Source: Agathobacter sp.
GTDB taxonomy: Bacteria; Bacillota; Clostridia; Lachnospirales; Lachnospiraceae
NCBI GenBank assembly: GCA_022769125.1
Contig: JALEKN010000035.1
Location: forward strand, 62,001 to 126,000
Length of the DNA stretch: 64,000 nucleotides
Direction of reading: 5' to 3'
Of the stretch, positions 16,249-19,058 are shown in pieces (the first letter of the stretch is position 1; each line of letters begins with the position of its first letter). Position numbers and translations under genes: made by a program. The notes under the pieces were generated by a model. That model ran no database searches. It was not told the origin of the DNA and saw nothing but the letters and a program-made list of their open reading frames with translations.

Positions 16249-17607
16249 ATGATTTGTTATCGTTGCGGACATGAGGCAGGAAAGGCAGATCGCTGTCCAT
16301 CCTGCGGGTCAGACTTGCATGTCTTCCAGAGGGTAATTCGTATATCGAATTCGTATTATAATGATGGACTGAGAAAGGCGGAGGTACGTAACCTGTCCGG
16401 CGCCATTATCAGCTTAAAGGCATGTCTGAAATTCAACAAATATCACATAGATGCAAGAAACTTACTCGGACTAATCTATTACGAAACCGGAGAAACAGTT
16501 TCTGCGTTGAGCGAGTGGGTGATCAGCAAGAGCTATCAGCCAGAGCAGAATCGTGCCACACTCTATCTGGACGATATCCAGAAGAACCAGGCACACCTGA
16601 ATACCATCAACCAGACAATCAAGAAGTATAATCAGGCCTTGTTATACTGCAGGCAGGATAGCAGGGATCTTGCGATTATACAATTAAAGAAAGTGCTTTC
16701 ACTGAACCCGAAGCTGGTCAAAGGACATCAGCTGCTTGCACTTTTGTATATTCAGGATGGCAAATATGAGCTGGCGAAGAAAACACTTCGAGCAGCCGGC
16801 AAGATTGATACAGACAACACAACGACACTGCGTTACCTGAAAGAGGTCAATGCGTGCCTTCGGGCAAGCTCTACCAAGAAAAAGGATACCAATGATGATC
16901 TTATTTCGTATCAGAGCGGCAATGAGACCATTATTATGCCAAAGCGGTTTAAAGAGTCTTCGCTTGGCTCTACCATTCTGTCCATTGTGATCGGTCTTGT
17001 GATCGGTGCAGCAGTGACGAGCTGGCTGTTTATTCCAAGCATCCGCCGGGAGGCAAAGAACGCATCCAATCAGCAGATGATGGCGGCGAATGATACGATT
17101 TCCGCAAACAACCAGACAATCAGCGCATTGGAAGAGCAGATTGCCAATCTGCAAAGTCAGGTCAGCTCTGTGGAGGATAATTCTCAGGAAGTAGAGCAGA
17201 CAATCGATACGTATGAAGCTCTTTTGAATGCTTATGACCTTTATTCTGCAGCGGATATCGATGGGGCAGAGAAAGCCATGAAAAAGGTCAAGACAGATCT
17301 GCTGAGTGAATCAGCATCCAAGATCTATGATACGCTGCAGGGGTCCGTTGAGGCAAGCTACATCGAGGCCCGCTACAAAGAAGGTTATGACTTCTACAAT
17401 GCCGCCGATTTTGAGAATGCTGCCACTGCTTTACAGGAGGTTGCGGACAGCGACATTGACTACGAGGCAGGAATGTGCGCTTACTATCTGGCACAGAGCT
17501 ACCGCAAGATTGGGGAAACAGATCTCGCCATAACCTATTATCAATACATTATTGATAACTATCCGGGAACACAGCGTGCGAAGACTGCCAAGAATTATGT
17601 GAAATAA
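16249..17607 (+). CDS. Zinc-ribbon/TPR membrane protein with an extracytoplasmic coiled coil and a second TPR region
   Basis: N-terminal CYRCGHEAGKADRCPSC zinc ribbon, TPR-like repeats, one TM (STILSIVIGLVIGAAVTSWLFI), then coiled coil and C-terminal TPR. Confidence 0.78.
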   Translation: MICYRCGHEAGKADRCPSCGSDLHVFQRVIRISNSYYNDGLRKAEVRNLSGAIISLKACLKFNKYHIDARNLLGLIYYETGETVSALSEWVISKSYQPEQNRATLYLDDIQKNQAHLNTINQTIKKYNQALLYCRQDSRDLAIIQLKKVLSLNPKLVKGHQLLALLYIQDGKYELAKKTLRAAGKIDTDNTTTLRYLKEVNACLRASSTKKKDTNDDLISYQSGNETIIMPKRFKESSLGSTILSIVIGLVIGAAVTSWLFIPSIRREAKNASNQQMMAANDTISANNQTISALEEQIANLQSQVSSVEDNSQEVEQTIDTYEALLNAYDLYSAADIDGAEKAMKKVKTDLLSESASKIYDTLQGSVEASYIEARYKEGYDFYNAADFENAATALQEVADSDIDYEAGMCAYYLAQSYRKIGETDLAITYYQYIIDNYPGTQRAKTAKNYVK

Positions 17608-17642
17608 TACTTAACAACTGCATATGTTATCATTTACAAAAG

Positions 17643-17678
17643 ACGTCTGAAGATCAAAACTCTTCGGACGTTTTTTAT
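17643..17678 (+). terminator. Rho-independent terminator
   Basis: acgtctgaaga-tcaaaac-tcttcggacgt followed by TTTTTTATT. Confidence 0.8.
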
Positions 17679-17721
17679 TGCCCGGCATATTCTTTTTGTG
17701 CCATCCCCGCCGTCCGGGGCT

Positions 17722-18229
17722 TTGCGCTCCCAACCCTTTACACCCGGCCGCCACCCCCTGCTGGGAGAGGGCATTCACGCAAAAATTGCTGAAATTCTTT
17801 CAACTCTTATTGTGGTGATGGCGTTGTGTCTTATAACGGCTTTGACACTCCATGCCAGGTTGTACCGCGGTAGGTGGATTTTGCTGTCGGACTTCCTAGT
17901 TCTCCTAAGGTGGGCGGCCTTACGAAGTTGATATTAGGAGCATGCGCCTCAAAACTCGCATTATACGTATTGAATATATAAAGGATATCAAGCTCAAACA
18001 GTCGGTGCATGCTCCCATTTCGTGCGGCACGCCCACCAAGGAGAACACGAAAGTCCTCGGAAGCAAAATCCACCTATCCGCGAACAGCCGGGCAGGAGTG
18101 TTCAAACCTTTAGAAGACACGACATATAGCAAAACCACAATAAGAGTTGATTAGAATTTCGTGATTTTGGCGTATGCTTCTCTCCCAGCAGGGGGTGGCG
18201 GCCGGATGTAAGGGGCGGGGAGCGCGAAG
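17722..18229. repeat. Long imperfect inverted repeat: arms about 17722-17948 and 18004-18229, loop about 55 nt
   Basis: Exact inverted blocks: 26 nt 17744-17769/18180-18205; 17 nt 17800-17816/18134-18150; 15 nt 17871-17885/18062-18076; inner GGAGCATGC(G/A)CC 17937-17948/18004-18015. Paired coordinates sum to 35947-35952, so there are few indels. Confidence 0.93.
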
Positions 18230-18312
18230 AAACTGCGAAGCGGGGGAGGAAAAGAGGAGGCCGGGGAATAGGGAGGAACAGTAGATGGCGAAATGTGGAA
18301 AGGAGTTAGAAA

Positions 18313-18624
18313 ATGCGTCATAAATATGAGATAAGCGGAATACAAATGAGATATCACATGCCGAAAGAAGTGGATCAGCATGCGGCAGAAGAGATAAGGA
18401 CTTTTTTGGAACAGATGATACAAACTGCACAGATCAGAAAGCTGGTATTCGATTTCGCGGAAACAGAATTTATGGACAGTTCAGGCATTGGAGTGGTCAT
18501 TGGAAGGAGCAGGACACTTGGCTACTATGGCGGAAAAGTAAGTGCAGCAAATGTAGGAGAAAGGGTAGACAAGATATTTCAGGCATCGGGACTGTACAGA
18601 ATCATTGAGATCGAGGAGGCATAA
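18313..18624 (+). CDS. spoIIAA: Anti-sigma F factor antagonist (STAS domain)
   Basis: FMDSSGIGVVIGR phosphoserine motif; followed by spoIIAB and sigF. Confidence 0.93.
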   Translation: MRHKYEISGIQMRYHMPKEVDQHAAEEIRTFLEQMIQTAQIRKLVFDFAETEFMDSSGIGVVIGRSRTLGYYGGKVSAANVGERVDKIFQASGLYRIIEIEEA

Positions 18625-18626
18625 TA

Positions 18627-19058
18627 ATGGAGAAGAAAACAAATCATATGCATCTGTGCTTTGATGCGAGAACGAATAATGAGAGCTTTGCAAGAATGGC
18701 AGTGACTGCATTTATGTCGGAGATGAATCCGACACTCGAGCAGATAGCAGATGTAAAAACTGCGGTGTCCGAAGCAGTGACGAATGCAATCGTACATGGA
18801 TATACGGATGAAAACAGGCAGGTGGAGGTTGTGTGCGACCAATATGATAAGAAGCTTGTTGTCATGGTTGTTGATCATGGAATTGGAATTGAAAACTTAG
18901 AACAGGCGATGCAGCCATTTTATACCTCAAAACCGGAATTGGAGCGTTCGGGTATGGGATTTTCCTTCATGGAGGCATTTATGGATGATGTAAAAGTGGA
19001 ATCAAGGCTTGGAATCGGCACAAAAGTTACGATGTCCAAGTACATAAGTGCAGAATGA
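18627..19058 (+). CDS. spoIIAB: Anti-sigma F factor (serine kinase)
   Basis: GHKL motifs EAVTNAIVHGY, VVDHGIGI and RSGMGFSFMEAFMD. Confidence 0.94.
   Translation: MEKKTNHMHLCFDARTNNESFARMAVTAFMSEMNPTLEQIADVKTAVSEAVTNAIVHGYTDENRQVEVVCDQYDKKLVVMVVDHGIGIENLEQAMQPFYTSKPELERSGMGFSFMEAFMDDVKVESRLGIGTKVTMSKYISAE

Follow-up and report, generated by a model that had tools for sequence, protein, structure and literature searches.

What is the long inverted repeat that fills the gap in front of the spoIIA operon of Agathobacter sp. (assembly GCA_022769125.1)? It lies in a window of 64,000 nucleotides of contig JALEKN010000035.1, between the terminator of a TPR-protein gene and spoIIAA. The sequence-only reading left three interpretations: a dispersed repeat in two inverted copies, a MITE-like element, or a large structured RNA. 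The evidence presented here indicates that the repeat is probably one copy of a MITE-like DNA element, ~600 bp long, non-autonomous and of the snap-back (fully palindromic) type, whose arms appear to be kept matching by arm-to-arm copying.

Extent, folding and genomic context of the inverted repeat

The features of the locus, in window coordinates, are as follows.

16249–17607, + strand: upstream gene encoding a TPR protein (TPR_6, E = 3e-11)
17641–17676, + strand: intrinsic terminator of the TPR gene, ordinary, separate from the element and in the same place in most relatives
17676–18270, no strand assigned: whole palindromic element, ~595 nt, from local alignment of its halves; the length matches the inserts in sister species
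17676–17948, + strand: left arm (arm pairing, folding and local alignment of halves)
17720–17769, + strand: outer paired segment of the left arm, pairing with 18180–18229; its sequence differs from the equivalent position in other copies
17773–18178, + strand: core conserved among the 18 copies of the window's genome, with 72–81% identity to the window copy
17900–18059, + strand: inner 160 nt, region for covariance model R1 and the part recurring in other species and genera
17949–18003, + strand: apical region between the inner stems
18004–18270, − strand: right arm, reverse complement of the left arm, ~72% identical
18180–18229, − strand: outer paired segment of the right arm, partner of 17720–17769
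18313–18624, + strand: spoIIAA, STAS domain (Pfam search)
18627–19058: spoIIAB, directly after spoIIAA
19048–19803: sigma factor gene, after spoIIAB

The inverted repeat is real and longer than first described. The exact blocks reported earlier were found in place, and the paired blocks could be located: the outermost (17720–17769 with 18180–18229) spans 50 nt with 90% complementarity, followed inwards by 17777–17816/18134–18173, 17853–17885/18062–18094, and 17937–17948/18004–18015. Local alignment of the two halves gave a score of 142, compared to at most 44 in 200 shuffles, with identity in 231 of 322 aligned columns. The same alignment contains 50 gap positions, so the arms do not pair almost without indels as had been claimed. 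Since the arms extend to 18270 and the spoIIAA start codon is at 18313, the space left for a spoIIA promoter is about 42 nt rather than the ~83 bp proposed. The predicted RNA fold of a 531-nt region had an energy of −323 kcal/mol versus −165 ± 6.6 for dinucleotide shuffles (z = −24), and the opposite strand also folds strongly (z = −26). The apical region contains two motifs, AAAACTCGC (17951–17959) and GCTCAAACAG (17992–18001), both of which recur across genera.

In most relatives examined, only a comparably short gap, free of the element, separates the terminator of the TPR gene from spoIIAA. A sigma-H-like sequence, AGGAAAA-N12-GAAT, occurs upstream of spoIIAA at 18247–18269. As a spoIIA signal it is probably a chance match, being located within the outer right arm and not found at a comparable position in most relatives.

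Copy number, coding capacity and distribution

The genome from which the window comes (2.75 Mb, 68 contigs) was found to contain 18 full-length copies including that of the window, 71–81% identical over ~390 nt, and at least five shortened ones. Alignment of the 18 copies showed a conserved core flanked by outermost arm parts that vary from copy to copy and still pair within each copy.

The element is non-coding. The apparent overlapping ORFs, noted earlier as resembling no known protein, are not genes: the four tested had no Pfam match, and all frames are interrupted by stops in each of the 18 full-length copies. Plasmid and phage collections contained no match to the element, and no description of it was found in a search of open-access literature.

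The covariance model R1, built on the inner 159 positions, matched 13 of 63 species of the genus, with 1 to ~30 copies each, and five of 249 other genera of the family, with several copies in each. A further 387 genomes, sampled from the class, gave no match, with only a few candidates scored per genome. The distribution across species is patchy. The remote copies likewise fold into hairpins of 500–620 nt and have in common an internal-loop motif, CGAAA, and two motifs around the apex, AACTCGC and GCTCAnACA. A core with invariant apical motifs is present in six genera, and the element ends differ between species. In species G010, three of the seven copies (L075, L076, and L078) carry an extra hairpin of ~70–80 nt in the right arm.

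Occupied and empty sites in sister species

The flanks of the copies in each of two sister species, G007 and G068 (~85% identical), were located in the other. At five or more sites, one species was occupied and the other empty, with inserts of 584–597 bp. In the cleanest pair (L128 versus L208) exactly 584 bases are inserted and nothing else is altered; further pairs are L101/L172, L096/L170, L100/L175, and L113/L214. The putative target duplication (~9 bp) can be read clearly and exactly only at L101 (ATAATATTT); at the other sites it has decayed. In these two species the element ends near CTTCAATTCG...CGAATTGAAG, and a search with an end pattern recovered only copies of the same element in G068.

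Because sites are occupied in one sister species and empty in the other, the element is mobile, and it is MITE-like: its copies are dispersed, its terminal inverted repeats make up the whole unit, empty sites exist, and coding capacity is absent. Of the interpretations offered at the outset, the MITE-like element is therefore the one backed by the 18 copies, the patchy spread among species, and the occupied/empty pairs. The suggestion of two inverted copies of a dispersed repeat was slightly off, since the unit that is repeated and inserted is the whole hairpin. The window copy has no close sister genome and no recognizable target duplication, and its own insertion is inferred from the rest of the family.

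The element is intergenic, usually at the 3′ end of a gene, in either orientation. Among 72 copies from nine species, chosen to have ORFs on both sides and classified approximately from simple ORF calls, 24 were in convergent, 40 in tandem, and eight in divergent gaps. The copies in tandem gaps occur in both orientations (24 and 16).

At the sites of L094, L099, L105, and L106, the element-free species has an ordinary terminator hairpin, and the element may take over termination at such places. A related arrangement was observed at L102 of G007 and L166 of G068, where a terminator hairpin that is single in G068 flanks the element on both sides in G007, in mutually inverted orientation. The location of several G007 copies at points where G068 has an ordinary terminator, together with the position of the window copy between a terminator and spoIIAA, would suit a host-encoded, immobile long terminator or regulatory hairpin for spoIIA. 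This explanation is hardly credible, given that the 17 other full-length copies are at unrelated genes and that relatives examined have no element upstream of spoIIAA.

Covariation and the strand test

The structured-RNA interpretation supposes a large non-coding RNA that spread as a mobile gene, with pairing kept by selection on the transcript. Covariation appears to favor it: of 122 consensus pairs in the 18 copies, 50 have double changes that keep the pair. The core with invariant apical motifs in six genera also points in this direction, as does the presence of the Rfam motif TwoAYGGAY in the repeat unit of genus G208.

Selection on one RNA strand should be visible in the half-compensated pairs. 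Among 103 pairs predicted for both strands, which make up a strand-neutral set, 34 half-compensated cells were G-U and 39 A-C, and pairwise single differences summed over six genomes comprised 1,410 G-U and 1,301 A-C with no consistent direction, neither copies within one genome nor pairwise comparisons being independent observations. The same procedure applied to RNase P RNAs from 30 species of the genus yielded G-U to A-C counts of 27 to 3 and 589 to 51, a strong G-U bias which shows that the test is able to detect a real RNA. Since the two intermediates are equally common in the element, selection acting on a single RNA strand fails to account for the pairing. The covariation implied by the RNA interpretation is therefore present, while the strand preference of intermediates seen in RNase P is missing. 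This interpretation is also at odds with the occurrence of tandem-gap copies in both orientations relative to flanking genes, with interiors that flip between species, and with the result of an Rfam search, in which no family matched above the gathering score anywhere in the window. Overall, we consider it improbable.

The frequency of double changes depends on divergence. At 3%–6% divergence the ratio of double to single changes is already 0.2 to 0.7, while below 3% there were no double changes versus 13 single ones. Matching of the arms therefore takes at least two steps and is not instantaneous. The same pattern would result if a DNA hairpin, or RNA from either strand, were under selection and compensated in two steps.

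Inversion of the interior, change in the outer arms and tip loss

Two orthologous sites are occupied in both G007 and G068, and at both of them the interior has opposite orientations in the two species with respect to the flanks. At the first (L098/L110), the outer arms have also changed in concert. At the second (L112 versus L205+L219), identity is 87.9% to the reversed element and 72.2% to the forward one, and the outer paired segment is wholly different between the species, yet paired in each; here, exchange for another copy may account for the differing segment. More generally, copies whose interiors are nearly identical may have wholly different outer arms that still pair. In five short copies of the window's genome the hairpin tip is gone, each time with a different breakpoint, and folding is retained. 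Such interior flips and tip losses are what inverted repeats would be expected to produce when they fold or switch template. Homogenized arms and inverted spacers are reported as the products of polymerase template switching at inverted repeats (PMC8604942). In the same genome (C7), a tandem array of short hairpins (GTGATGGCTA...TAGCCATCAC units, L029 at ~1590–1690) adjoins a left-arm remnant.

Other origins of the outer arms were considered. Their derivation from pre-existing target hairpins or from an inverted target duplication is weakened by the location of the end motifs outside the variable segment, and by the difference in this segment between orthologous copies at one site (L112 versus L205+L219). 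Searching the rest of the retrieved loci for these segments returned only the same copies plus one weak relative.

Copy-specific outer arms around nearly identical interiors could also be accounted for by movement via RNA and reverse transcription, in which self-primed copying of the folded cDNA would create matching arms. We regard this route as very improbable: the reverse transcriptase domain PF00078 is absent from the window's genome, which is 93% complete, and the concerted change of outer arms after insertion at orthologous sites makes an insertion-linked step unnecessary.

Proposed mechanism

Arm-to-arm copying at the DNA level appears to explain pairing without strand preference, and the snap-back MITE-like element proposed above would work in the following way. 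A hypothetical transposase supplied from elsewhere would recognize the element ends, and movement would proceed by a cut- or copy-and-paste route. When the element folds during replication or repair, one arm could template the other, by template switching or intra-element conversion, and complementarity would thereby be kept. A change would arise in one arm and then be copied to, or erased by, the opposite arm. The same templating process would flip the interior and sometimes delete the hairpin tip.

The conservation of the apical motifs across genera exceeds what arm copying alone predicts, so that a binding protein, or some role of the folded strand, may be involved. One possible, though unlikely, explanation is that the hairpin or cruciform itself serves as the DNA substrate of a protein, with pairing kept by selection on single-stranded DNA and not by copying. 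The missing strand bias fits this equally well, the apex and internal loops contain conserved motifs, and the tip deletions suggest that the hairpin forms in the cell. On the other hand, wholly different outer arms still pair, whereas a binding site should keep some sequence there. It is also conceivable, if rather doubtful, that a folded single-stranded DNA hairpin, recognized via its conserved apex, is the mobile form of the element, with the outer arms written by self-templated copying each time. If so, the sequence of the outer arms would be free and their pairing would be enforced by the mobility mechanism itself.

Comparison with known elements

The bacterial MITEs and intergenic palindromes Correia/NEMIS, ERIC/IRU, RUP, YPAL, and bcr1 resemble the element in being short, non-coding, dispersed, and intergenic, in target duplication (putative in the case of the element), and in that their transcripts would fold into long stem-loops. 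YPAL inserts at or beside regions of dyad symmetry (PMC2229807). These families measure 100–200 bp (PMC2229807), while the element is ~600 bp long and its hairpin spans the whole unit; unlike in those families, its outer arms vary yet pair, and its interior occurs in both orientations at orthologous sites. Its multiple copies, the empty sites, and the absence of coding capacity make the element MITE-like, and the known kind to which it belongs is the snap-back MITE. It differs from the families reviewed in PMC10969869 and PMC2229807 in its size, full palindromy, variable paired outer arms, and flipping interior.

Similarity was also found to quasi-palindromes corrected by template switching, for which PMC8604942 and PMC8794818 describe mutational homogenization of arms, inverted spacers, and compensatory changes without RNA selection. 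The cases described there are short repeats or genuine RNA hairpins, while the element has arms of ~270 nt each and forms a mobile family. Invertons (invertible DNA switches) likewise have a segment between inverted repeats in both orientations; the element differs in spanning no promoter known to be switched, and its inversion was seen only between species.

The motif TwoAYGGAY (Rfam RF01731) lies within the same repeat unit as the element in genus G208, but the shared core hairpin found by R1 is not TwoAYGGAY, which was not detected in the window's genome. TwoAYGGAY is multi-copy in three carrier genomes (32 copies in G208, 31 in G172, and 12 in G152). In G208 (loci L181, L186, L191, and L197) it is found no more than ~300 nt from nine of the 10 element cores, and in G172 (L267–L272) many copies form inverted pairs a few hundred bases apart. 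TwoAYGGAY may belong to mobile palindromic repeats.

Significance

The connection to TwoAYGGAY seen in other genera points to similar mobile repeats as carriers of one or more catalogued RNA motifs. Covariation normally serves as the evidence for structured RNA, and this family is a natural counter-example, with very strong covariation that lacks the strand bias expected from transcript selection. The ratio of G-U to A-C intermediates is a simple check for such RNA-like covariation. Palindromes as long as these are usually considered unstable in bacteria; those of the element nevertheless persist at tens of copies per genome, and the arms, inversions, and tip deletions of the copies record how long palindromes are copied.
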